From an uncultured Clostridia bacterium (GTDB lineage Bacteria > Bacillota > Clostridia > Oscillospirales > Oscillospiraceae), in the NCBI GenBank assembly GCA_946061515.1, contig CAMGRL010000002.1:34847-98846 (forward strand): 64,000 nucleotides of DNA, read 5' to 3'. The notes beneath the pieces were generated by a model. It did not search any database, was not told where the DNA came from, and was given only the letters and a program-made list of their open reading frames with translations. Position numbers and translations under genes: made by a program. Of the stretch, positions 4,519-43,277 are shown piece by piece (the stretch's first letter is position 1; every line of letters begins with the position of its first letter).

Positions 4519-6420
4519 TTATTCAATTCCGAGTTCGCGTAATCGTCTGTATAATGTCGGTCTGCTGATATTCAGCATTGCGGCCGCTGCGGTTTTGTTC
4601 CCGCCGCACTTTGCCATGACACGTTCGATCTCCGTATCGCTCGGCGCAAGAATGCTGGTTTTCCGGCTGTTTTCCTCCGGAGAAGGCGCTTCATAATTCT
4701 GATAAAGCAAGTCAAGCACCTCGTTGCTTTCTATTTTTCCCCCTTCATTTGTGACGGTAAGGCGCTCTGCAACGTTTGACATTTCGCGTACATTCCCGGG
4801 CCATCGGTATTCCGTCAGAAGCCGCATGGCCTCAGGCGTAACTTTCAGGGTAGGACGGCCGAATTTTTCGGCGAATACTTCCAGCATATACTCCAGCAGC
4901 TTTCGGGCGTCGCCTTCCCGTTCACGCACCGGCGGGAGATGCAGCTCAAGAACATTGATGCGGTAAAACAGATCTTCCCTGAACTTTCCTTCCTGAACCA
5001 TTTTGCGCAGATTTTTGTTTGTCGCCGCAATGATTCGCACATTAACAGGAATGATCTTATCGTCGCCAAGGCGCATTACCTGTTTTTCTTCCATAACGCG
5101 CAGCAGCTGGGCCTGCATCGGCGTATCGATCTCGGCAATTTCGTCCAGGAAAATGGTGCCGTTGTGCGCCAGTTCAAACAGGCCGACCTTACCGCCGCGC
5201 TTGGCTCCGGTAAACGCGCCCTCTGAGTAGCCAAACAGCTCTGATTCCAGAAGGCTCGTTGGCAGCGTCGCACAGTTTATGGCCACAAACGGGCCGTTTG
5301 CCCGCAGGCTGTGGTTGTGGATACTCTGCGCGAACAGTTCTTTTCCCGTTCCGGATTCGCCGGTTATCAGCACAATGGAGTCTACCCCGCTGTATCGTTT
5401 TGCTTTGCGTATGGCCTCGCGCAGTTGGGGGCTGTCTCCGATGATCTGATCAAATTTGTATTTTGCTGTCAGTCCGCGCTCAGCCAGCCGGGCGCGCGTA
5501 CTGCTCTCAATGGATTGAATATATTCCACGCTCTGCAGCTTTGCCACAACCGCGTTGACCACTTTGTCGCTTTTTACGGCGCGCAGGCTGCAAACATATT
5601 TTTTCCCCCCGCACTCCTGCAGGTCATACGGGATCGCTGTTCCGGTTTTGATGACCGTATCGACGCTGGAGCTGAGCTGCCCGTCTGTCAGCGGTTTGCC
5701 GAGCTGATCCTCGCTCTTTACACCGAGTATTTTACAGGCCTTATGGTTAAGCTGGACAACGTTTCCCAAGCCGTCAAAGAGGATCAGCGCATCCCCGATC
5801 ATTTCGAAGAGGGTATTCAGCTCTTCGTTTTTTTTGGCCTCAACGCGGATCTGAGAAACGATTTTCATTGACTCGTGCAGCGCCTCTGCTATCTCATCGC
5901 TGCCCGAAGCCATGACCACTCTGGCCAGACCCGCGTTTTCCGCATAGCGTGTTTCATCAAATCCGCCGACCAGGGCCACAACGCCATCGCGTCTGGCCTG
6001 AAAAGCAACGCGCGGGTAGTCCTCCGGAACGCTCGCCAAATAGTACTTTATGTTCGTTCCCAGCACACTGTCAAGCATGCGGCTCTGGTCGATCATATAT
6101 TGCGTGCCCGCCAGCCCAACGCAGCCATAGCGCCGGCTCGCCTCAACGCAGGTCTGCGTGATGTTGCTCATGGTAAAGGGGATCTCAATGACCGGTACCT
6201 TCAAATCGGCCACGCGCAAATGGGCTATATATCCTGCCCGTGTGACCAGCACCTTTGCGCCGTTTTCCACCATACGCTTTGCTGCGGCGATGCCCTCCTG
6301 ATAATCTGTAACCCGCATGACGTCTATTTCGCCCGGTCTGAACTTCTGGATCGCATCCTGGGCTGCATTATAGCTCGATTCCAGCTCAAGTATTACCCCT
6401 ATCTCTGCCATGCGGCTCAC
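4519..6420 (-). CDS. Sigma-54-dependent transcriptional regulator, PrpR N-terminal + PAS + AAA+ + Fis HTH
   Basis: ITGESGTGKELFAQSIHNHS Walker A, ELFGYSEGAFTGAKRGG (GAFTGA), C-terminal HTH GGNKTAAAAMLNISRPTLYRRL, PrpR-N-like N-terminus. Confidence 0.95.
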   Translation of the reverse strand: MSRMAEIGVILELESSYNAAQDAIQKFRPGEIDVMRVTDYQEGIAAAKRMVENGAKVLVTRAGYIAHLRVADLKVPVIEIPFTMSNITQTCVEASRRYGCVGLAGTQYMIDQSRMLDSVLGTNIKYYLASVPEDYPRVAFQARRDGVVALVGGFDETRYAENAGLARVVMASGSDEIAEALHESMKIVSQIRVEAKKNEELNTLFEMIGDALILFDGLGNVVQLNHKACKILGVKSEDQLGKPLTDGQLSSSVDTVIKTGTAIPYDLQECGGKKYVCSLRAVKSDKVVNAVVAKLQSVEYIQSIESSTRARLAERGLTAKYKFDQIIGDSPQLREAIRKAKRYSGVDSIVLITGESGTGKELFAQSIHNHSLRANGPFVAINCATLPTSLLESELFGYSEGAFTGAKRGGKVGLFELAHNGTIFLDEIAEIDTPMQAQLLRVMEEKQVMRLGDDKIIPVNVRIIAATNKNLRKMVQEGKFREDLFYRINVLELHLPPVREREGDARKLLEYMLEVFAEKFGRPTLKVTPEAMRLLTEYRWPGNVREMSNVAERLTVTNEGGKIESNEVLDLLYQNYEAPSPEENSRKTSILAPSDTEIERVMAKCGGNKTAAAAMLNISRPTLYRRLRELGIE

Positions 6421-16621: not shown

Positions 16622-17527
16622 TCACGCCCACATAGTGTTTATCACTCTCGCCGTGAAAACCACGCCGGCCATCATGTCCGCGCCGGAGCTGCCGCCGATC
16701 GAAATCAGTCTCGCAGCCGCGTGCGGCCAGTCTTCTCCGCCTGCCGCGGTCAGAACATCCTCGATGGCGGAGAATCGGCCGCCGGCCGCAGCCGCGAGCA
16801 GATATGCCGCGCTGTATTTATTGGTCTTTTTTTCTGCCTTTTCCGCGACCAGAGAACAGAACGCAGTCCTTACTTTCAAATCGATCCCCCATTCTCTGGC
16901 GCAAAAATGGAGTGTGGAAAGCATTCCGGTGATAAAATCGTCAAAGGACGGGGTCAATCCCCTGCCCAGGCCAAGCACGCCATCCAGCCCTGTACTGAGC
17001 TCGGCCAAATTTGCCATCCTCAGCCCCCGCTCTATTTTCTGTATCCCGCCAAGACCGGTAAGGGCAAATATATCGTCAAGCGCATCCCGTTCGATCTCCG
17101 CGGAATCCCTGATCGAAAACGGCGAAAGATTGGATCTGTTTTGTGAGACCAAAAAGGCTCCGCCGCTGTTTTGGAGAAAATATATTCCCTCTGCCGCCGT
17201 TGACACCGGCCTTCCGGGCCCATAGGGCCTGTACTCTATTCGGGCAAACATGTCCCCATCCGCAAACCTGAGACAGTTATGCGCAAGGTTCAGCACACTT
17301 CCTGCCTCAATTCCCAGGTTCTTCGCCTTGTCGTTTATTTCCGTTCCAGCCAGCCCGAAGGGCAAGCTGCCATAGGCCCGGTCATAGAGCATAAGGATCC
17401 TGCCCTTATCATCCGCAAAATATATGCCGGAGCTGAACACGCCTGCCGCTGTAAGTTCATGTTTTTCTGCGCAATACCCGGCAAGCGCCGGATCACTGAC
17501 CGTCAGTATTCTGTTCAAGTTCCTCAC
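16622..17527 (-). CDS. DUF2877 protein (YlbF/AllH-like)
   Basis: 301 aa; GLGRGLTPSFDDFITGML motif and GGSSGADMMAGVV C-terminus typical of DUF2877. Confidence 0.75.
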   Translation of the reverse strand: MRNLNRILTVSDPALAGYCAEKHELTAAGVFSSGIYFADDKGRILMLYDRAYGSLPFGLAGTEINDKAKNLGIEAGSVLNLAHNCLRFADGDMFARIEYRPYGPGRPVSTAAEGIYFLQNSGGAFLVSQNRSNLSPFSIRDSAEIERDALDDIFALTGLGGIQKIERGLRMANLAELSTGLDGVLGLGRGLTPSFDDFITGMLSTLHFCAREWGIDLKVRTAFCSLVAEKAEKKTNKYSAAYLLAAAAGGRFSAIEDVLTAAGGEDWPHAAARLISIGGSSGADMMAGVVFTARVINTMWA

Positions 17528-19400
17528 CGTCCATCTGTTTGAGCCTTCTATGCAGTGTCGGGCGGCTTATTCCCAGTTTTTTCGCCGCGAGCGTCTTATT
17601 TCCCCCGCATTCTTTCAGCGTCCTTTGTATCAGTTCCTTTTTCGCATCATCCAGTGTTTGCGGCTCATCGGCCTGCTTAACCGCTTTCGGTGTACTGTTT
17701 ATATGCAGTGCGTCCATAACCTGTTCGGCTTCTACGTTTTCCCCTACGCTTGTCACCACCAGTCGTTCAACCACGTTTTTCAGTTCACGGACATTCCCCG
17801 GCCAGGCATAATTCTTCAGGATCTCCATCGCTTCAGGCGAATACTCCAAGGTCCGCCGTCCATTTTCCGCCGCATATTTTTTTGTAAAATTTTGAATCAG
17901 TGTTTCAATGTTTTCTCTGCACGCGCGCAGCGGCGGCAGCTCCAGTGACAAAACGTCAAGCCGGTAATAAAAATCGCTTCGGAACTTGCCCTCGTCCACC
18001 ATTTTTTTGAGATCGCGGTTTGACGCGGCAATAACGCGTATATCCACGGGGATGACCTTATCATCGCCAACGCGCATGATCTCATGCTCCTCCAGCACGC
18101 GAAGCAGTCTGGCCTGCATGTCGAGGCTCGTTTCCCCGATCTCATCCAGGAAGATCGTACCCTTATGCGCAAGCTCAAACAGGCCGATCTTTCCGCCGCG
18201 TTTTGCCCCGGTGAACGCGCCTTCAACGTAACCGAACAGCTCGGATTCCAGCAGGTTTGCCGGTATCGTCGCGCAGTTGACCGCAACAAACGCCTCCTCA
18301 CAGCGTTTGCTGTAGTTATGTATGCTCTGGGCAAACATCTCTTTGCCTGTGCCCGTCTCGCCCGAAATCAGTATGGAAGAATTAACCACCGCATAACGTT
18401 TCGCAGTCTGCACGGCCTTTTTCAGCAAAGGGCTTTCTGCGCAGATATTATCAAAGCTGTTTTTCGCGATAAGGCCCTTATTGGCCAGTTTCTGGCGTAT
18501 CTTCCGTTCGATCTTATGAACGTATTCGACTTCCTGCATCACGGTCACAAGGCTGTTTTCCTGTTCTTTTATGGGCAGAAAAGACGCTGTGAATTTGTAA
18601 TCGTTATACTCATACAATTCGTCATATACCGGCGTTCCGGTGCTCAGCGCTTTTTCCTTCATCTGCTGCATCTCGGGCAGCGGAAAACCGCTGAGAACCA
18701 CGTCTGCGCCAAGCAGCTTGGTGGCCCGCCGGTTCGCATGAGAGATGTCCCCTTTGCTGTCGACCACAATGACCCCTTCGCTTATGGTGTTCAACGCCGC
18801 TTCAAAAAGCTTGTCCCAGTGCTGGTCCCGGGCCAGCGCGGAGAGCACGCCCTTTGCCTCGATAATGGCGGTGACGATTTCATATTCGCTGGTTTTTATG
18901 CAGTAGTCATGGATGCCATAAGCCCTGGCTGCACGTGTTGCATCATAGCCGCCGATCACGGCTTTTATGCCGTCCTTCCGGAGCTGCGTCATGATCTTGT
19001 CAAAATCGGCCCACTGTTTTATCTCAAAATAATGGATCTTTGCGCCTATCGGCCTTTCAAGCTCACGGGTCATCTGAACCATGGTCGCGTTGCCGATAAC
19101 AGCAAACTCTCCCCACTCGTTCGTTGCTCTGACCAGCATCGCCGCAATGTCGTTTCCGGTAAAAGGAATTGCCGTAATGGGCAGCCCCATATTACGGGCG
19201 CGGAGATAACGTGCGTGGCCGCCGCGGGCAATGATGCACTGCCCGCCAAGCGCCCGGAAATTTTCTATGATCTTCAGGCTCTCTTCATAGGTGTGCGTCA
19301 TAAGCATCTCAACGTCATCCTCCGCTCCGGCGTGCGCGATGGCGTCTTTTACTGTGGGAAGCATCTCTTCGCTGTTTACAAGAAGTGCTATCGGTTTCAT
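17493..19400 (-). CDS. Second sigma-54-dependent regulator with PrpR N-terminal domain
   Basis: 635 aa; ISGETGTGKEMFAQSIHNYS, GYVEGAFTGAKRGGKIG (GAFTGA), C-terminal HTH GGNKTLAAKKLGISRPTLHRRL. Confidence 0.95.
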   Translation of the reverse strand: MKPIALLVNSEEMLPTVKDAIAHAGAEDDVEMLMTHTYEESLKIIENFRALGGQCIIARGGHARYLRARNMGLPITAIPFTGNDIAAMLVRATNEWGEFAVIGNATMVQMTRELERPIGAKIHYFEIKQWADFDKIMTQLRKDGIKAVIGGYDATRAARAYGIHDYCIKTSEYEIVTAIIEAKGVLSALARDQHWDKLFEAALNTISEGVIVVDSKGDISHANRRATKLLGADVVLSGFPLPEMQQMKEKALSTGTPVYDELYEYNDYKFTASFLPIKEQENSLVTVMQEVEYVHKIERKIRQKLANKGLIAKNSFDNICAESPLLKKAVQTAKRYAVVNSSILISGETGTGKEMFAQSIHNYSKRCEEAFVAVNCATIPANLLESELFGYVEGAFTGAKRGGKIGLFELAHKGTIFLDEIGETSLDMQARLLRVLEEHEIMRVGDDKVIPVDIRVIAASNRDLKKMVDEGKFRSDFYYRLDVLSLELPPLRACRENIETLIQNFTKKYAAENGRRTLEYSPEAMEILKNYAWPGNVRELKNVVERLVVTSVGENVEAEQVMDALHINSTPKAVKQADEPQTLDDAKKELIQRTLKECGGNKTLAAKKLGISRPTLHRRLKQMDGEELEQNTDGQ

Positions 19401-19466: not shown

Positions 19467-20855
19467 TTACGGTTTATCATTTGTTGTATCAAAATATTCC
19501 TTTATCGCGTCTGCCCAACCGTTCTGGAAAAAACCGCACGCTCTCAAGTCAGGGGCAAGGTAATCTTCCCCGGCGCTTCCTGAGGCCGACGCTCTGCACC
19601 CTCCGCAGCAGCGGAGTCTGTACTTGCAGCTGCGGCACTTTGCATTGTGCTGCAGATACGCATCAAGCCGTCTGTCTGCATACCGCATATATTCCGAGTT
19701 GCTGAGGATCTCCCTGAGCGGGATTTGAAAAAGATTCGGAAACTGCTTTTCGATCGCTGTCCCGGCCATGGACATGCAGGGCAGTATATTTCCCTGGGGG
19801 CTGATATACAATTCTCTCCGAATATGCGCGCATAAGAGCTGGTGTGCTTCGCCGCCCTCAGCGCAATTATGCTCAAAGGGTACAAAACATTTTTTCTCAT
19901 CCTTCATGTACGCAAACATTCCGTCAAGCATCAGGCTCATGGGTGCGCCCTCTGCGAAAAACACCGGAATATATTTCATATAGATCCCGAAACACTCGTC
20001 GTCATCCAGATACTCACTGCGCTCATTAAGCCATTCGCCGGCCGGGCTGGTATTGTTCACCTTCAGGCCGGAACAGCCGAGCTGCGCGAGCAATTGTACG
20101 CTTTCGCGCAGAGTCCCGGCATTCCGGCGGTTAAGGCACATGGCTGCCGAGGTTTTGAAGCCCCTGTCCCGGCATATCTGAAAGGCCTCTATGACCCGTC
20201 TCTCCGCGCCTTCAAGTCCCCGCAGCCAGTCATGGCAGCCTGCGCCGTCAAAGCTGATCTGAAGCTGCGGATGTATTCCGCGTGCCTCAAACCCATCCAG
20301 CAGTGCGTCATTCACCAGCATCCCGTTGGTGAAAAGCGTGGTCAGCTTTATGTTTTTTTCACACAGCGCGTCTACGATTTTCCAGAAATCGCGCCGTACA
20401 AGCGGCTCTCCGCCGGTCAGAGAGACTTTTCCCACACCGCATTCTGCCAATTGGTCGATGATCTTCAGGCAGTCCCCATACCCCAGCTCACCCAATGCGC
20501 CCCCAGGGGCGGACATGAAGCAATGCCTGCACCGAAGATTGCAGTTTCCGGTAACAGACCATTGTGCCGATTCCTTAAACCGGGCAGGATACTGCCGGTA
20601 CCGCTGTCTTTCTTCCAGTGTACATTTTTCTGTGCACTCGCTGACTACGCCGGAGTCGATATACTCGTTCAGCATGCGGCGCTGAACCTCATTCAACGCA
20701 GCATCGGAAAACGCATATTCGCCGTCGCAATGGAACAACAGCAGAAATCGGTCGCGGCTGAGAAACGTGACATCATTGGACTTCAGCTCTACAAGTGCAT
20801 ACGGCAGACGCTGCCAACCCCGCAGGGCAAAGCTCCGTGAAAGAATATACTTCAT
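19467..20855 (-). CDS. Radical SAM/SPASM peptide maturase (Nif11-peptide-associated type)
   Basis: 462 aa; CNLRCRHC (CxxxCxxC), GGEPLVRRDFW, C-terminal SPASM-type Cys cluster (LPCMSM...CRSCKYRLRCCGGC...C); ~100-aa N-terminal extension that could be a RiPP recognition domain. Confidence 0.88.
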   Translation of the reverse strand: MKYILSRSFALRGWQRLPYALVELKSNDVTFLSRDRFLLLFHCDGEYAFSDAALNEVQRRMLNEYIDSGVVSECTEKCTLEERQRYRQYPARFKESAQWSVTGNCNLRCRHCFMSAPGGALGELGYGDCLKIIDQLAECGVGKVSLTGGEPLVRRDFWKIVDALCEKNIKLTTLFTNGMLVNDALLDGFEARGIHPQLQISFDGAGCHDWLRGLEGAERRVIEAFQICRDRGFKTSAAMCLNRRNAGTLRESVQLLAQLGCSGLKVNNTSPAGEWLNERSEYLDDDECFGIYMKYIPVFFAEGAPMSLMLDGMFAYMKDEKKCFVPFEHNCAEGGEAHQLLCAHIRRELYISPQGNILPCMSMAGTAIEKQFPNLFQIPLREILSNSEYMRYADRRLDAYLQHNAKCRSCKYRLRCCGGCRASASGSAGEDYLAPDLRACGFFQNGWADAIKEYFDTTNDKP

Positions 20856-20856
20856 T

Positions 20857-21216
20857 TCACATGGACATAAAGGTTGAGCCTACAGTTGCGGGTGAAGTCT
20901 GCGCGGTACACCATATACCTGTCTCAACCGACGCGGCACAGGTGTCCCGATTCTGTACCGTCGAAGTGCAGACGCCGGCGTGGCTCGTGACAGCCTCCAG
21001 CTCAAGCGCGTCGTTATCACCGCACTCGGTCATGGCCGTCTCGAGCTGCTTTGCGTCAAAATCATATCCCAGCTTGCGCGCAGCGGCCGCTGCGCTTTCA
21101 ATCCGTTCGGCGCGGGTCATTTCCCGGCCGGCAGGCATAAGCTCCTTCAATTTGGTCCTCAGTTCCTCGTTGAAATTCACGTCAAAAAGAAACACTTTTG
21201 CATTATCCAGTGACAT
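20857..21216 (-). CDS. Nif11-like leader RiPP precursor candidate
   Basis: 119 aa; MSLDNAKVFLFDVNFNEELRTKLKEL...AAAAARKLGYDFDAKQLETA...LELEAVTSHAG then VCTSTVQNRDTCAASVETGIWCTAQTSPATVGSTFMSM; RBS taaggaggg; 1-nt gap to rSAM start. Confidence 0.7.
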   Translation of the reverse strand: MSLDNAKVFLFDVNFNEELRTKLKELMPAGREMTRAERIESAAAAARKLGYDFDAKQLETAMTECGDNDALELEAVTSHAGVCTSTVQNRDTCAASVETGIWCTAQTSPATVGSTFMSM

Positions 21217-21272
21217 ATTTTCCCTCCTTAAATGTCATTTTTGTTAAAATGTCGGGTATCTCAAAGCGCCAG

Positions 21273-21310
21273 AATAACCGTGACGGGTTTTAAGGCCCAG
21301 CACGGTTATT
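21273..21310 (-). terminator. Terminator separating the VOC/mutarotase operon from the RiPP unit
   Basis: aataaccgtg...cacggttatt inverted repeat. Confidence 0.5.
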
Positions 21311-21332
21311 CGTATATTATGGTTTTTCCGTA

Positions 21333-34254: not shown

Positions 34255-35034
34255 ATGAACCAGGCTGAAAAAAGAGAATTTCTCATCCGGCGGCTGCTGG
34301 ATGAGAACGGGCGTTATAGCGGAATGGAAGTCCCGGCAGACGCATATGAACAGAAGCGCATGCTGCGCTCTCTGATGAACATCCGCCGCCCCGGAGCCAT
34401 CGACGCCGGATTTCTGACCGTGCAGGACGAATATCTGCGTCAAGAGATTGAAGCGTCAGGCATCACCAGCCTGGCCGATTTGGAGCCGGTTTGCGGGGAT
34501 TTGTACCTCTGGCAGGGCGATATCACCCGGCTGAGGTGCGGCGCCATCGTCAACGCCGCAAACAGCGGTATGACGGGCTGTTATGTACCCTGCCACGCCT
34601 GCATCGACAACTGCATCCATACCTTTGCGGGCGTCCAGCTCCGGCTGGATTGTGCCCGGCTCATGGAACAGCAGGGCCACGAGGAGCCTACCGGTCAGGC
34701 CAAGATCACCCGGGCCTACAACCTGCCCTGCGACTATGTGCTGCATACCGTCGGCCCCATCATTGAGGGCCGCGTGAGCCCGGAAGATGAGCGTCTGCTG
34801 GCCTCCTGCTACCGTTCCTGTCTGGAACTGGCCGGGGAAAACTTAGTTACAAGTATTGCGTTCTGCTGCATCTCCACCGGTGTGTTCCGTTTTCCCAATC
34901 AGCGGGCCGCCGAGATCGCCGTGGAGACAGTGAAGCGGTATAAAGCGGAAACCCAAAGCGAAATGAAGGTGATTTTCAATGTTTTCAAAGACCTGGACCT
35001 CGAAATCTACCAGCGATTACTGGCAGAAAATTGA
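34255..35034 (+). CDS. Zn-type macrodomain protein-ADP-ribose hydrolase
   Basis: 259 aa; DITRLRCGAIVNAANSGMTGCYVPCHACIDNCIHTFAGVQLRLDC...VLHTVGPI. Confidence 0.92.
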   Translation: MNQAEKREFLIRRLLDENGRYSGMEVPADAYEQKRMLRSLMNIRRPGAIDAGFLTVQDEYLRQEIEASGITSLADLEPVCGDLYLWQGDITRLRCGAIVNAANSGMTGCYVPCHACIDNCIHTFAGVQLRLDCARLMEQQGHEEPTGQAKITRAYNLPCDYVLHTVGPIIEGRVSPEDERLLASCYRSCLELAGENLVTSIAFCCISTGVFRFPNQRAAEIAVETVKRYKAETQSEMKVIFNVFKDLDLEIYQRLLAEN

Positions 35035-35848
35035 GCGGCTGAAGGCTGAGATACAAGGCGCGGACGCTATCCTCATCGGCGCGGGCGCCGGCCTTTCAAC
35101 CTCCGCCGGTCTGACCTACAGCGGCGAGCGATTTCTGAAATACTTCTCCGACTTCCATGCGAAATACGGCATTACCGATATATATTCCGGCGGTTTCTAT
35201 CCCTTTTCCTCTCTGGAGGAATACTGGGCCTGGTGGAGCCGGCATATCTACTATAACCGCTACGATCTGACGCCCGGAAAGCCTTATGCGGACCTGCTGG
35301 CGCTGGTCAGGGACAGAAATTACTTCGTTCTGACCACCAACGTGGACCATCAGTTTCAGCTGGCCGGGTTTAATAAGGCGCGGCTGTTCTACACCCAGGG
35401 CGATTACGGCCTCTGGCAGTGCAGCAAGCCCTGCCATCAGGCCACCTATGACAACGAGGCCGCTGTCCGCCGGATGATCGCGGAGCAAGCGGACATGCGT
35501 GTTCCCTCCGAACTGATCCCCCGCTGCCCCAGGTGCGGCAGGCCCATGACCATGAATCTGCGCTGTGACGACACTTTCGTTCAGGACCAGGGCTGGTATG
35601 CCGCCGCCCGGCGATATGAGGATTTCCTGCAGCGGTACAGGAACGGCCGCATCCTGCTTCTGGAACTGGGCGTCGGCGGCAATACGCCCGGAATCATCAA
35701 AATGCCTTTCCTCCGCATGGCCGCCCAGAACCCCAAAGCCACCTACGCCTGCCTCAACCTGGGCGAGGCCTTCACCATGAGCGGGCTTGAAGAGCAGTCC
35801 ATCCTGTTTGACGCCGATATCGGTAAAGTGCTGAGCGATTTGAGATAA
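34979..35848 (+). CDS. SIR2 family NAD-dependent protein (class M-like sirtuin)
   Basis: 289 aa; ILIGAGAGLSTSAGLTYSG, LTTNVDHQF, CPRCGRPM zinc motif; overlaps the macrodomain gene by 56 nt. Confidence 0.9.
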   Translation: MFSKTWTSKSTSDYWQKIERLKAEIQGADAILIGAGAGLSTSAGLTYSGERFLKYFSDFHAKYGITDIYSGGFYPFSSLEEYWAWWSRHIYYNRYDLTPGKPYADLLALVRDRNYFVLTTNVDHQFQLAGFNKARLFYTQGDYGLWQCSKPCHQATYDNEAAVRRMIAEQADMRVPSELIPRCPRCGRPMTMNLRCDDTFVQDQGWYAAARRYEDFLQRYRNGRILLLELGVGGNTPGIIKMPFLRMAAQNPKATYACLNLGEAFTMSGLEEQSILFDADIGKVLSDLR

Positions 35849-36573: not shown

Positions 36574-39500
36574 ATGATGTTTTCATTAGACAAGCAACAC
36601 CGCATCAAAATTGCTGATATAGTGCCAAATGAATTTGAAGACTTTCTGACCTATTGCAGTATTGCGAACAAGATATTTCCCGATGAAATTACATCAGTTG
36701 ACTTTATTGCATATCGTTCCCAGTTTGGGCGCGAAAAGAGCGAGGTGAAGCGGCTGCGTGCGCTGATAGAATCCGGCGAAGCACATGGCAAATCTGATAT
36801 TAGCGCAGAGAAAATTGGTTTGGCTCCTAAAGTAGACGTGGAGGTTTTGCCATTAAATCATGAAATCTTTGCTAAGAAGCAAAATCTTGGCAATGAGACT
36901 AAGTCAATAGATAAGACTGTTGATATGCTAGAAAAAATAGGCCTTTCAGCTTATGCTCCTAAAAGCAATAATGTATTTACTAATTCCGAGAATACATATG
37001 CCGAGATTTTGGGAATAAATGCGGATGACTATGCCGATATTAGTGTCGAACTTGATTTGCGTGCACAGTATTCTGTTGATTTATCTATACGTTCACTGAA
37101 TGCGCTTAGAAATGCTAAATGCTTGTCACTCAAGGATTTACTTCTGTTGACTCCTTTGCAGTTGCCCAAAATTAAAAATCTTGGTGCAAAATCGGTAAAA
37201 GAAATTGAAAGTGTGCTCTTAGATATTTCTAAACAGTTGCCGTCGTCCAACGAACAGACTTTACCCGAGGGTAGTTGTTCTATTAGGAAAAAGGTACTTT
37301 ACCCAATCATTGAGTCAATGTTGCATGGGGAGCCATATTCCGAAGCAGGATTGACTGAGGATGAAAAAGGGGTTTTCGCCGAAGCAGTTGAAGCTGCTGA
37401 ACTGCTCGGAAATGATTTTTGCATTGAACTGATGGTTGGCAAGAACCATCAGTATATAAAAAACATTATTAAAGCATTCATGGACTTCAACTATAATACA
37501 ACGCTTGTTCAGAGCCTTGTAGATAGTGCAAAGTCTGCTGTCGCAACATGGAAGTCGGAGACCCTATCCAATTGGCTTCTTCCTTATCTGCAACTGTTTT
37601 GCATGTCACAGAAGAAAAAAGTTTCAGATGAATTTAAATCCCTTTTCAAACAGGATGTGACGGTAGCAAAGTATGCAGAGCTTTTATCCTCTGAAATCGA
37701 TTCAAACACTGAGAACCTTACTAATCTCGCGAAAGAGCTTGAGGCTTTCCAAAATTGGATGGGTGGAGTTGATCTGCCCGCTCTTTGTAAAAAAGCATTC
37801 AGCCCAAACATGTCAATGCGTGATCGCATATTTGATGTATTGACTTTACGTGCCGCTGGACATACGTTGGAAGAAATTGCACAACAATATGGCTTAACCC
37901 GAGAACGAGTTCGCCAGATAGAAAAGAGGGGACTTTATAATATAAAGTCCCGACTGTCCAACAGCAAGTACGACTTGATTGCGCTAGTTTCAGCCTATCG
38001 CAACGGCGACCATATTCTACTCAAAAATGAAGTCGCTGAAACTATTGGTTCGGAAAACGCTGACCTTCTGTGGTACTGTGCTACAAGGACCGAAGACAAG
38101 GGACGCACATATTTCCTGGACAGTAAAATCGTACATTACGACAGTACACATAATGCGATATTTGTGTTCTATAAGGAAACGCAAGAAGAATTCGTTGCTA
38201 TATCCGCCAACGAGATTTCAGAAGCACTTATTAACAGTCTACCAGATTTAATCGAAACCTCCACATTAAAAGAGGAACTTAAATCTCTGGCCATAGAACA
38301 TGGACTCTTGCCGGAACTGTTTATACTTGAAGCAGCGAAGCAATACAAAGAGGCTGGCATCTACTCCTACAAGGGCAGGCTTACGGTCGTTCAGATGTGC
38401 GACTTCGTCCTGAAAAAACGCTTTCAGAACGGCTATAAAATTTCAGACGAAACAGACAGCGGCCTGTTTATGAAATACTTGGTTGAGTTCTTTGGGGAAA
38501 AAGGCCAAATGACCGCGCGCGCTATCGATGCGAAAGTGATGGACTTAGGTGTTCTAATTGACCGGGGGAAGTATGTTCATAAGGATTACATTAGCGTTGA
38601 TAGAAGTGTCGTAGACGAAATTTTCGCCTATATTGAATCCAGCCCCAAAACGGCGCTTGCATATTTTGAGATTTTTGCTGCGCTTGAGGAATTGCTCAAG
38701 GGAACAGCAATAACGAATCGGTATGCACTTCAAGGCGTTATGAAGCTGTACGGCTGTCCGTATGCGTCCCATCGCGATTATATTTCAAAGGATCGTGACG
38801 GAAATGTGGCTGACGAGCTCAACGCATTTGTGGAAACAAACGGCTTAGTACATAAAGCTGAGATTTTTGCTGAATTTCCCGGCTGGAAGGATTATAACCT
38901 TGCCTTTGTTTTGCCCCGCTGCCCCGAAGTCATCGGAATTGATAACGGCTACTTTATGCATGCAAGCAAGCTTGTTATCAGTGAAGATACCCGTTGCAGC
39001 ATACGCAAGTACCTTGATGCAAACATCCAGGACATTCCTGTCTCAGCAAGATATTTGCAGGATGCGTTTATGCTTCGTTTCCCAGAGTTTATGATTAAGA
39101 ACGATATCCAAACTCACGGTAAACTGTTTGGTATTATTCAGTACATGTTTCCCAAAGCATACCACTTCTCTCGACCTTACATCGCTAAAGAAAACATTGG
39201 AGAAATCACGAACAAATCCGTTCTGCTCAAGCATCTTGAAGGGATAAAAAGTATTGATCTTTCGGACCTCATCGACCTTTGCAAAGAGAATGCTGTGCAC
39301 TATGTGAGTGTGTCTTATCTTCTGGATATGATGCAGCCGGAATTTGTCCGTATAGATAGTCATACATTGATGCGGTTCGAAGACATTGGTTTCAACGAAG
39401 AAATGTATCTGGATGTTTCTGATATCATTTCTGAGACGGTGGCAGCACATAACGGATACATTGCCGCAGGCAGTATCTTTGACTTCAGCTGGTATCCTGT

Positions 39501-39822
39501 GTTAAATATTCCATGGACACCCTTCCTACTTGAAAGCATCGCAAACATGATTCCCGGAGGAATCAATACGATCAAGATGGTATCGTTGTCATCTGAAGTC
39601 CCCCACGCAATTTTCGTGAGTGACGAATATGCCGACGATGACTGGAATAGCTTGCTTGTAAAACTGCTAAAGGCCGAGCATGCAATTGAACCATTTACTA
39701 CAAAAACGGCTATATTAGAATGGTTACAGGCAGAGGGGCTTTGTAATATAAAATACCCGACCTATTTAGATACAGAGAAACATGTATTCTTTGATGATAG
39801 CGGATCGTTAAGGATTGAATGA
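36574..39822 (+). CDS. Large protein with RNAP alpha-CTD-like HhH segment and sigma70 region-4-like HTH
   Basis: 1082 aa; LDLSIRSLNALRNAKCLSLKDLLLLTPLQLPKIKNLGAKSVKEIESVLLD and LTLRAAGHTLEEIAQQYGLTRERVRQIEKRGL. Confidence 0.85.
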   Translation: MMFSLDKQHRIKIADIVPNEFEDFLTYCSIANKIFPDEITSVDFIAYRSQFGREKSEVKRLRALIESGEAHGKSDISAEKIGLAPKVDVEVLPLNHEIFAKKQNLGNETKSIDKTVDMLEKIGLSAYAPKSNNVFTNSENTYAEILGINADDYADISVELDLRAQYSVDLSIRSLNALRNAKCLSLKDLLLLTPLQLPKIKNLGAKSVKEIESVLLDISKQLPSSNEQTLPEGSCSIRKKVLYPIIESMLHGEPYSEAGLTEDEKGVFAEAVEAAELLGNDFCIELMVGKNHQYIKNIIKAFMDFNYNTTLVQSLVDSAKSAVATWKSETLSNWLLPYLQLFCMSQKKKVSDEFKSLFKQDVTVAKYAELLSSEIDSNTENLTNLAKELEAFQNWMGGVDLPALCKKAFSPNMSMRDRIFDVLTLRAAGHTLEEIAQQYGLTRERVRQIEKRGLYNIKSRLSNSKYDLIALVSAYRNGDHILLKNEVAETIGSENADLLWYCATRTEDKGRTYFLDSKIVHYDSTHNAIFVFYKETQEEFVAISANEISEALINSLPDLIETSTLKEELKSLAIEHGLLPELFILEAAKQYKEAGIYSYKGRLTVVQMCDFVLKKRFQNGYKISDETDSGLFMKYLVEFFGEKGQMTARAIDAKVMDLGVLIDRGKYVHKDYISVDRSVVDEIFAYIESSPKTALAYFEIFAALEELLKGTAITNRYALQGVMKLYGCPYASHRDYISKDRDGNVADELNAFVETNGLVHKAEIFAEFPGWKDYNLAFVLPRCPEVIGIDNGYFMHASKLVISEDTRCSIRKYLDANIQDIPVSARYLQDAFMLRFPEFMIKNDIQTHGKLFGIIQYMFPKAYHFSRPYIAKENIGEITNKSVLLKHLEGIKSIDLSDLIDLCKENAVHYVSVSYLLDMMQPEFVRIDSHTLMRFEDIGFNEEMYLDVSDIISETVAAHNGYIAAGSIFDFSWYPVLNIPWTPFLLESIANMIPGGINTIKMVSLSSEVPHAIFVSDEYADDDWNSLLVKLLKAEHAIEPFTTKTAILEWLQAEGLCNIKYPTYLDTEKHVFFDDSGSLRIE

Positions 39823-40172
39823 GATGGGCAGGATTAAGAAAGCAACATTATGGAAGAGCTTTTGCCGTCAAATCATGAACACCTTGAGCGAATTAGTAAA
39901 GGTATCAAGAATGCGCAGAAAATGATACTGATGCAGAACAAGAAAATCTGCTCAATTTGCAGTTGTGTCTTTAAAACCATTATTCAGGACGGGCTAGTGA
40001 GTTGCTGGATTTCAATATTGCAATGTTCGTTACATCTCTAAATAAGAATGAAAAGATTCCATAGTCGGACATCTTGGTTTTGTGCCCGACATGCCATGAG
40101 CTAGCATATTCATTTCTAGGGTTGTTTGAAGAACAGCACCTACAATAATCAGTTGAAGGAAGATAAATTGCT

Positions 40173-43100
40173 ATGTACAACTACGAATGGGATGCCGAAA
40201 CAGGCGGGTACATCCTTACTACTAAAATTACGGGGGTGACCAAGGAAGTCCGCCCGGTATTTGAAGAAGAATTGAAATTTCTGGAGCTTGACAAAAATTA
40301 TGGCTGGGACATCCCCGAATGTGTTGAGCCTCTTATGTGGGCAGAGGGTAGACGCTATTTTTATCGCGGCGTGCTCGTTGCAGAAGCTGTTGGTGGTGGA
40401 CTATATTCCATGCCCATAATGAAAAATGTTGTCCGAAATCTGTCCCTTAAGCCAGTTAATATCCAAGCAATGGTTGCAAAAAATGAGGATCTTATGAACG
40501 GTCTTGTTCAGCGCACATTGCACTTTGTTTATGACACATATAAACAATATGAAGATCGCGTGAGTCTTTTTTATGTGGCATTTAGTGCGGGTAAAGACTC
40601 AATGGTGATGCTTGATATCGTACAAAGAGCGTTACCACACGATTCGTTTGTTGTTGTCTATGGTGATACGACGATGGAGCTTAATGCAACATATAAAGCC
40701 GTTGAAGATGCTAAAAAACGTTGGCCGCAGTTGGAATGGTATACAGCGAGAGCTCCATTTAATGCAATTGAATCTTGGGGGAAAATTGGATATCCTGCAC
40801 GACGATTAAGGTGGTGCTGTAGTGTTCATAAGACCGCCCCATCAATTCAAAAGCTGCGCGAAATATATAAAGAGAAATATCCTGAAAGTAACAAACCCTT
40901 CAAGGTCATGGTTTTTGATGGTATCCGCGCAGAAGAAAGCGACGCGCGTGCTGCCTATTCAATGATTTCCGAGGGCAACAAACACGCAGTTCAAGCAAAT
41001 TGCAGCCCAATTCATGAATGGAATACTACTGAGCTTTTTATTTACATGTTTGCAAATGATATCCCGATTAACGAACTATATCGGTATGGTTCTCATAGAG
41101 TCGGGTGCAAACTTTGTCCAATGGCTTCTGAATGGTATGAATGTATATTAAATCATGTTTATCCCGACCAAATAAAACCTCTTCTTGATATTGTGGATGG
41201 TTCAACAAAAAAGAGCTTTGGCAGTCAACAGGAAAAAGAACAATATTTGGAAAGTGGCGGTTGGAAATCCCGTGTTGGCGGAAAGGACATATCTCTCGGC
41301 GAAAATAAAATCACCGAGATAAAAAAAACTGACAAGATTGTTTTCATTATTAAAGGGGGAAATTATAAATGGGATAAATGGTTACCTACGGTTGGAGACT
41401 TAGTCAAAACCGGAAGGAACTCCTATTCAATACGATATCATGAACTATCCATGGAGTTCGATGTTACGGAAGAGAATGATTCAACAATAGTTACCGTACC
41501 AATTCTAATAAAGTCAAAGACAAGCATCCGTTTCATGTACTTGTTTAAGAATGCTTTATTCAAAGCTGCGTATTGTGAGAATTGCCGTGAATGTATGGCG
41601 GAATGTGCATTTGGAGCATTGACCATTACCGATGATGATATACAAATTAAAGGATGCCGGCATTGCGAATCGTGCCTTGATTCTTCAAAAGGATGTATTG
41701 TCGCAAGGTCACTGGGAATTACAGGAGAGGGTAATAATATGAGTGCTTTAAATATCAGCAGATATCAGAACTTTGGTTTCAGGCAAGAATGGCTTGATCT
41801 TTATTTCGAGTTAGGTGATAATTTCTGGAACAATGACCGCATGGGAAAATACATGGTCATTGGTTTCAAAACCTGGCTGAAAGAATCGGGCATTACAGAA
41901 AACAATGCCATCACTACGTTGGGGAACAAGCTGAACCATATCGGGGTTGAATCGCCTGTTACATGGGGTATTATTTTTGCGAATCTTGTTTACAACTCAC
42001 CAATTATAAACTGGTATGTAAGGAAAATCGATCTAAACCGAGCTGTTTCCCATGATGAAATGGTCATTCTTCTTGGTGACGCGTATTCACCGACCGTAAA
42101 GAAAAACGCATTGAGTTCATTAAAGGAAACAATTCGCCTTTCCCCAATCGGTGGTCTTTTGGGACAAGGAAAATGCGAGATGAAGGGTAAGGTTGTAACG
42201 TCAATTACTCGTACCGGCTGGTTTGAGCCTGAGCCGCTCGTCATGCTCTATACCCTTTATCTATTTGCGGAGCATAGCGATGGTCTCTACAGCTTTACTT
42301 TCAGTGAATTGATAGATGACAGTGATGACAGAGAAGCAATAAGTCCCAACCTGATTTTCGGAGTGAGCAGTGAGATGCTGCGCCCCATCCTTCAGGGGCT
42401 GGCTCACGATTACTCAGATTATATTCAGGTTGATTTTAACAACAATCTGATGGAGAATATTTTTCTACTCTTGTCTGCTCTTCACACAAAAAACGGAAGC
42501 GTAAGCCGTTCAGGAACAACATCATTGTTGCGTCCGACTGCAAAGAATATAAACGCCTGCTTTGTAGGTACGCCTATCGAAAACAAAGTAAACGAGTATC
42601 TGAATTTACTATCTTCCAAGGGCATTTTGGGGCAAGTTGAAGATTCCAACGATGTACTCTATGTTATTACTGCTGTGGCGATTGACAAAGATCGGATGGA
42701 AAAGATGGAAGAGGATGCCCGTAAAACGTTCTCATTCGATAAGATCATCACTGATCCTACATATGCAGTCACGAAGCAGTTTGTGCCGAACGGCTTCATG
42801 GCAGAACGGTGCTCAATTCAAATTATTACTCCCAGCAATGCACGAACTGTTGCAACCAAATATAGTCCCGAAAGCAATAAGATTGCTTTATTCTATCTTT
42901 TTGCTAAAAACGAAGCTGAGCAAGGGAAGGCCAGTGACGCAATCAAAAGCGTTTATTCCGAGATTTCGGAGCGTTGCATTATTGTTGATTTTACATCGCT
43001 GCCTTTTAGTGAGGACCGGTATGAGCGATTCATCAAGAGCAAGGCAAGGGAAGGGGAAATGCTATTACACCGCCTCGATCTTTCGGGTATATGCATTTCT

Positions 43101-43277
43101 ACTGGCTCAGCGTGTGATAGCAGGAACACACAAGTTTCTCATGTATTGCGCGCAATGAAGGTTCCCGAAGAATATGCTCTCGGAACAATCCGCATCTCGC
43201 TGGGAAAAGAAAATACAGAAGAAGATATAGAAAGAATAGCCAATGTACTGATAAAAACGCTGAAATTAATTCAATAA
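40173..43277 (+). CDS. PAPS-reductase/DndC-like PP-loop + ferredoxin + DUF4007-like + cysteine desulfurase C-terminal tail fusion
   Basis: 1034 aa; YVAFSAGKDSMVMLD PP-loop, IRAEESDAR, CENCRECMAEC...CRHCESCLDSSKGC, YQNFGFRQEWLDLYFELG, and C-terminal LDLSGICISTGSACDSRNTQVSHVLRAMKVPEEYALGTIRISLG. Confidence 0.85.
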   Translation: MYNYEWDAETGGYILTTKITGVTKEVRPVFEEELKFLELDKNYGWDIPECVEPLMWAEGRRYFYRGVLVAEAVGGGLYSMPIMKNVVRNLSLKPVNIQAMVAKNEDLMNGLVQRTLHFVYDTYKQYEDRVSLFYVAFSAGKDSMVMLDIVQRALPHDSFVVVYGDTTMELNATYKAVEDAKKRWPQLEWYTARAPFNAIESWGKIGYPARRLRWCCSVHKTAPSIQKLREIYKEKYPESNKPFKVMVFDGIRAEESDARAAYSMISEGNKHAVQANCSPIHEWNTTELFIYMFANDIPINELYRYGSHRVGCKLCPMASEWYECILNHVYPDQIKPLLDIVDGSTKKSFGSQQEKEQYLESGGWKSRVGGKDISLGENKITEIKKTDKIVFIIKGGNYKWDKWLPTVGDLVKTGRNSYSIRYHELSMEFDVTEENDSTIVTVPILIKSKTSIRFMYLFKNALFKAAYCENCRECMAECAFGALTITDDDIQIKGCRHCESCLDSSKGCIVARSLGITGEGNNMSALNISRYQNFGFRQEWLDLYFELGDNFWNNDRMGKYMVIGFKTWLKESGITENNAITTLGNKLNHIGVESPVTWGIIFANLVYNSPIINWYVRKIDLNRAVSHDEMVILLGDAYSPTVKKNALSSLKETIRLSPIGGLLGQGKCEMKGKVVTSITRTGWFEPEPLVMLYTLYLFAEHSDGLYSFTFSELIDDSDDREAISPNLIFGVSSEMLRPILQGLAHDYSDYIQVDFNNNLMENIFLLLSALHTKNGSVSRSGTTSLLRPTAKNINACFVGTPIENKVNEYLNLLSSKGILGQVEDSNDVLYVITAVAIDKDRMEKMEEDARKTFSFDKIITDPTYAVTKQFVPNGFMAERCSIQIITPSNARTVATKYSPESNKIALFYLFAKNEAEQGKASDAIKSVYSEISERCIIVDFTSLPFSEDRYERFIKSKAREGEMLLHRLDLSGICISTGSACDSRNTQVSHVLRAMKVPEEYALGTIRISLGKENTEEDIERIANVLIKTLKLIQ

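Follow-up and report, generated by a model that had tools for sequence, protein, structure and literature searches.

Precursor–Maturase Pair and Its Locus

The window analysed here, a stretch of 64,000 nucleotides of DNA from a gut-type Clostridia bacterium, encodes on its minus strand a Nif11-leader precursor and, after a single intervening base, a radical SAM/SPASM maturase. An earlier note on this DNA had proposed both open reading frames, with the maturase starting 1 nt past the precursor stop; both are found there and the pair is confirmed as real. The ribosome binding site of the precursor is a good one. The features are collected in Table 1.

Table 1. Features of the precursor–maturase locus (window coordinates)
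Feature	Position	Strand	Evidence
Nif11-leader RiPP precursor, 119 aa	20857..21216	-	Pfam PF07862; broken homologue at the same position in sister genome G302
Radical SAM/SPASM maturase, 462 aa	19467..20855	-	PF04055 and PF13186 matches, AlphaFold model, PDB matches
Ribosome binding site of the precursor, AAGGAGG	21223..21229	-	Read in the sequence
SH (S78-H79) replacing the Gly-Gly leader cleavage motif of relatives	20980..20985	-	Comparison with precursors of L027, L028 and L155-L159
Core motif copy 1, C83-TSTVQNRDT-C93	20938..20970	-	Motif common to relatives
Core motif copy 2, C93-AASVETGIW-C103	20908..20940	-	Alignment with CAATVEDGSWC (L159) and the CAATVE cores (L155-L158)
Predicted RRE-like leader-binding domain, maturase N-terminus, about residues 1-92	20580..20855	-	Model and PDB matches
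CxxxCxxC radical SAM cluster motif, residues 105-112	20520..20543	-	Invariant in alignments A1 and A2
SPASM region, auxiliary cluster Cys 342, 360, 407, 410, 416, 420, 440	19536..19832	-	Each Cys conserved without exception in A1 and A2
Inverted repeat GAATAACCGTG...CACGGTTATTC upstream of the pair	21272..21311		Arms; comparison with sister G302
PrpR/PrdR-like sigma-54 activator, downstream neighbour	17493..19400	-	Found in G302 and G337, neither of which has an intact pair

The pair is placed between a glyoxalase-like gene and the sigma-54 activator, 66 bp beyond the maturase, in a sugar-acid catabolic locus with altronate/galactarate dehydratase-type genes, transketolase halves and a TRAP transporter. 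Another PrpR-like sigma-54 activator is encoded at 4519-6420 (minus strand) and shares 41% identity with this neighbour of the pair. The inverted repeat upstream had been described as terminator-like. The repeat itself is real (z −4.6), and its arms are identical in the sister genome, with a different loop. It has no T tract and a terminator scan gave no call there; it may be an operator or a terminator.

Two other regions of the window are recorded here as observations in their own right. A low-GC island (about 40%) at 36574-43277 (plus strand) holds a BrxP-like protein (40173-43277, PADLOC 776 bits) terminating in a DndA/aminotransferase-V-like stretch; its neighbour, a 1082-aa protein, combines an RNA polymerase alpha CTD with a sigma-70 region 4 domain, and the two are candidates for an unusual defence pair. 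At 34255-35848 (plus strand), a macro-domain protein overlaps an open reading frame with a Sir2-like start (GAGAGLSTSAG) and no Pfam match at 0.01, possibly an ADP-ribose signalling pair.

Leader, Cleavage Site, and Core of the Precursor

The Nif11-like N-terminus seen earlier passes the Pfam model Nif11 with 26.2 bits (gathering score 23.8) and scores below the cut-off of the NCBIfam model leader_Nif11 (TIGR03798; 23.2 versus 32.3 bits), as do the precursors of those relatives that were tested. Leaders of close relatives end in a GG-type site, mostly ELExV-x-GG. In the window this site is gone: the precursor reads LELEAV-T-SH where L027, a related locus, has ELEAV-S-GG, and hence LELEAVTSHAG takes the place of a double-glycine leader end. 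Recognition by C39 peptidases follows Leu-12, Glu-8, and Leu-7 ahead of Gly-Gly (PMC6363468); on direct reading, the later Ala-Gly of the window precursor does not fit this rule in register either.

The tail of the precursor is TSHAGVCTSTVQNRDTCAASVETGIWCTAQTSPATVGSTFMSM. Relatives share the core motif C-x-x-[TS]-[VAYF]-x5-C, two overlapping copies of which, CTSTVQNRDTC and CAASVETGIWC, make up the window core with Cys93 in common. The spacing of Cys 83, 93, and 103 is C-x9-C-x9-C; the C-x10-C-x9-C given earlier was incorrect. Local alignment of the window core against 14 cores, all from precursors of motif-bearing clades, gave a best score of 57 versus 29.7 ± 4.5 for shuffles (p = 0.0002; p = 0.0008 with Cys positions fixed in the shuffles), and the resemblance is thus more than chance. 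Judged by its letters, the window core contains the family motif twice. None of the NCBIfam models extends over the cores of the relatives, and a text search for the CAATVE motif found no relevant paper in the open-access literature.

Maturase Domains, Fold, and Family

The maturase matches the Pfam families Radical_SAM (74.3 bits) and SPASM (28.4 bits). The CxxxCxxC motif and the SPASM cysteine set, both claimed by the earlier note, are present, the latter complete, and do not vary in either family alignment. The AlphaFold model (pLDDT 88.6) finds its best PDB matches in SkfB, SuiB, BlsE, PqqE, CteB, and anSME. Since a Pfam scan of eight maturases revealed no PqqD/RRE match, structure was used for the N-terminal domain. 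Modelled alone, the first 95 residues (pLDDT 89.8) match leader-bound lasso-peptide RRE proteins and SuiB at the top of the list, albeit with weak E-values of 0.04-2, and TigE and a LynD-type heterocyclase RRE at lower rank, again with weak E-values. The N-terminal extension, previously suggested as a possible leader-binding element, models as an RRE-like domain.

In NCBIfam, the maturase scores far under every curated equivalog cut-off and no curated maturase family matched above its cut-off. The family is unnamed in the curated models searched and no curated family claims its members. Its signature consists of LRGWxxLPYA near the N-terminus, CNxxCRHCFMSAP, and CGGCRA. Of the 102 genus genomes, 12 encode a homologue, as do 12 of the 394 genomes sampled from the order when a stricter threshold is applied; homologues are found across Clostridia, the nearest being 46-48% identical, and scanning the collection extended the family to Erysipelotrichaceae, Synergistaceae, Atopobiaceae, Butyrivibrio, Ruminococcus, and Gemmiger. 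A search of the genome contigs with the maturase sequence alone gave no matches; a search with alignment A1 reached the family.

Out of 72 columns that are near-invariant in the rest of the close group, the window maturase retains 71 (the exception is F175 for Y), as many as relatives from intact clusters. In the tree, it forms its own line within a clade of 27 rows (100/99 support), with the distant ALRSW group outside; its placement nearest to the CAATVE-core clade is without support.

Relatives of the Pair

In other genomes, homologous maturases adjoin precursors of the Nif11/GG type, which frequently share the core motif. In close relatives the core takes the form C-[AST]-[AS]-T-[VA]-x5-C, after which comes [ND]D-x-C or D-x2-C; examples are GCAATVEPGSDCWGTDGGC, KCAATVEPGSHCWSNDRC, NCAATVEDGSWCSTNDAC, and GCSSTAKVGEFCLSNDSC. 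Genome G149 has at least six precursor paralogues of the form CxDTFxxxENCWWNDGCD; at L031:1-2661, one maturase and an NHLM exporter are accompanied by a tandem array of at least six paralogous precursors with this core. Cores of the clades L029, L030, L043, L160, and L161 differ from the motif, and no Nif11 precursor is obvious in the L032/L045 clade. Since the maturases of some clades, namely L029, L032, and L161, are paired with a different core or with a precursor that is not of the Nif11 type, the enzyme does not always go with the motif.

Several relatives show features of their own. At L032:10344-11981 and L045:662-1269, the same maturase family is accompanied by short precursor-like open reading frames without a Nif11 leader; L032 further encodes a PqqD protein of its own (53 bits), which adjoins the maturase, together with a signal-peptidase-like and an HprK-like open reading frame. 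Precursors at L028:2812-3688, L041:9443-9919, L155, L156, and L157 carry CxxC...CxxC tails after the core motif, which look zinc-ribbon-like and, given weak Pfam matches, are possibly metal-binding. One precursor copy at L158:1499-1960 (also at L136) has an insertion within the motif, GCAATVEVQELAFGQLASQGTCSNNDNC, possibly a natural ring-size variant. The window's own genome encodes a second, solitary Nif11-like open reading frame (L130:1498-1869; 123 aa; 16.7 bits, below cut-off), alongside which no maturase was noticed.

Export Machinery

Relatives of the pair are placed in NHLM clusters with GG leaders and a C39-peptidase exporter; the exporter of L027 passes TIGR03796 with 929 bits. An NHLM exporter above the TIGR03796 cut-off is encoded in 63 of the 102 genus genomes, including all 11 other maturase-positive ones, for which simple arithmetic gives a chance expectation of roughly 0.62^11, about 0.005. 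In some genus genomes exporter and maturase are on different contigs (e.g., C29 and C32 of G004).

The earlier note had seen no dedicated transporter or protease adjacent to the pair. This extends to the window genome as a whole, at 81% completeness: no NHLM exporter was found there (best match 345 bits, cut-off 853; TIGR03796/TIGR03797), the best matches being ordinary ABC exporters without a peptidase part, and no C39 peptidase. Neither was an NHLM exporter found in the sister genome G302, also 81% complete. The absence from an 81%-complete genome is strong but not final evidence.

Sister Species and Selection

Sister genome G302 has the same catabolic locus, with 78-96% protein identity in most genes (47% for the AllH-like one). 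Between the same two flanking genes, the start of the precursor is followed by a frameshift, by the junction KAVTSHAGVCTS and a stop, after which the last approximately 50 maturase codons remain, with about 1.3 kb gone. The pair therefore predates the split of the two species and can be lost. In a third species, G337, a pyruvate:ferredoxin oxidoreductase-like gene takes the place of the pair, and no pair is present at this locus. Given the loss in G302 and the pair-less locus of G337, the pair is dispensable. The earlier note was right in placing it inside a catabolic locus, but the same two genomes leave a functional tie to that locus unsupported; the catabolic neighbours are not required partners.

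Sequence comparison between the window and G302 bears on selection. Codons 1-21 of the precursor differ by 2 non-synonymous and 8 synonymous changes (dN 0.04, dS 1.5, dN/dS about 0.03). AVTSHAGVCTS, the 11 residues spanning the former GG site, is identical in protein sequence with 8 synonymous codon changes, while the residues right after the junction (TVQ) and past Cys93 are unconserved in the broken copy. The ratios are limited to codons 1-21 and a short C-terminal maturase stretch, since dS is saturated further along the precursor and in the regulator; for the junction we give codon counts. As the loss of GG is common to both species, the conservation of the junction accumulated in the GG-less state. 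The synonymous-only change suggests that selection acted after the GG site was lost, and speaks for a peptide that, without GG, kept its usefulness over most of the period since the two species diverged. Given that conservation, the decay in G302 would be recent. Only one intact copy of this GG-less variant is known.

Comparison with Known Systems

The closest parallel is with the Nif11-derived NHLM-exported peptides (N11P/NHLP) of Haft, Basu, and Mitchell (2010; PMC2887384), which share with the window the Nif11-type leader, the Cys/Ser/Thr-rich tail, and an adjacent maturase, and relatives of the window pair adjoin NHLM exporter genes. In contrast to them, the window precursor has no GG motif and stays below the TIGR03798 cut-off, and an exporter was found neither locally nor in the 81%-complete genome. 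The thermocellin/SCIFF ranthipeptides (CteA/CteB) likewise combine an RRE-SPASM radical SAM enzyme from Clostridia with a Cys-rich core; the window differs by its Nif11 leader and doubled CxxT-x6-C core, and the maturases are only remotely similar in sequence. Fold and domain order are those of the sactipeptide maturases SkfB, AlbA, and StsB (98.7 bits with the StsB model; SkfB as best fold match), yet the maturase is far under the equivalog cut-offs and the core is unlike known sactipeptide cores. Nif11-class peptide radical SAM maturase 3 (TIGR04103) is also a radical SAM/SPASM enzyme with a Nif11-type substrate, but at 85.9 bits against a cut-off of 725 the window maturase is not a member. 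Finally, the spliceotide system PlpX/PlpY has a radical SAM SPASM enzyme acting on Nif11/NHLP-leader precursors (PMC11002830), as in the window, but depends on an Xaa-Tyr-Gly motif in the core and on a stand-alone RRE, whereas the window core has no Tyr.

Interpretation and Alternatives

Taken as a Nif11-leader RiPP precursor with a cognate radical SAM/SPASM maturase, the earlier interpretation of the pair is supported, both by homologues that adjoin Nif11/GG precursors and by the SkfB/SuiB/PqqE/CteB-like fold. From the sequences, the neighbouring enzyme almost certainly modifies the precursor peptide. We lean towards a functional stand-alone RiPP pair, descended from the NHLM-linked exported radical-SAM peptides of gut Clostridia, minus the GG site and the NHLM exporter. 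Against this reading count the dispensability of the pair, the 81% completeness of the window genome, whose missing part could hold exporter and peptidase, and of G302, the single intact copy, the loose coupling of motif and enzyme, the unsupported tree position next to the CAATVE clade, and the weak E-values of the RRE match. As a Nif11/radical-SAM RiPP unit the pair belongs to a known kind, and it stands out by a maturase whose family is uncurated, by the doubling of the motif, and by the lack of any export route in the sequences searched.

Cys-Thr thioethers made by an RRE-SPASM enzyme have a precedent in thermocellin/CteB (PMC8326336, PMC11002830), and by analogy we infer Cys-Thr/Ser thioether crosslinks for the pair. 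The RRE-like domain, as its fold suggests, would bind the Nif11 leader; reductive cleavage of SAM would yield a 5'-deoxyadenosyl radical, which would take a hydrogen from the core, the likeliest donor being the conserved Thr/Ser at Cys+3 (T86, S96). Attack by a Cys thiolate held at a SPASM cluster would then close the thioether ring. One or two such rings may form within C83-xxT-x6-C93-xxS-x6-C103, with a predicted mass loss of 2 Da per ring. As to its fate, the product would presumably either be retained inside the cell with its leader or be freed by a general protease.

That the same pair performs a different radical chemistry on the same core, such as a C-C or C-O crosslink, epimerisation, or Cys/Ser oxidation, seems to us a rather unlikely but serious alternative: the structural matches include SuiB and PqqE (C-C) as well as anSME (Ser/Cys oxidation), and no curated maturase family was matched above cut-off, while the Cys-Thr/Ser motif conserved across relatives, the full SPASM set, and the CteB precedent (PMC8326336) speak for thioethers. 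Alternatively, the pair could be a decaying relic, which has lost exporter and cleavage site, drifts towards loss, is not yet broken in the window species, and makes an immaterial product. The broken copy in G302, the missing exporter and C39 peptidase (in an 81%-complete genome), and several non-synonymous core differences around the second Cys would fit; we hold it unlikely in view of the low dN/dS of the leader codons, a GG-less junction that changed at synonymous sites only, and a maturase that keeps its near-invariant columns as well as relatives in intact clusters do.

Two further readings concern where the product acts. An ordinary exported RiPP, whose exporter and protease are encoded in the unassembled 19% of the genome and cut at a non-GG site, would be consistent with the 81% completeness, the exporter count in the genus, and the separate contigs of G004; we judge it very improbable, as CxxT-core precursors near intact exporters retain the GG-type site, the sister genome is also without an exporter, and the GG loss is common to both species. 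Only slightly less doubtful appears a domesticated RiPP system, in which the Nif11 protein keeps its leader and works within the cell through a Cys core that is crosslinked or metal/redox-sensing; its targets might be the neighbouring PrpR-like sigma-54 regulator and the sugar-acid catabolic genes. If this were true, a radical-SAM-modified peptide would serve metabolic control instead of being secreted.

For the favoured stand-alone pair, the findings tie an unnamed radical SAM maturase family to its substrates through a common core motif, and the pair yields a short crosslink prediction that is open to testing. As a RiPP pair that has apparently outlived its export machinery, it lets one ask whether such peptides work within the producer cell.
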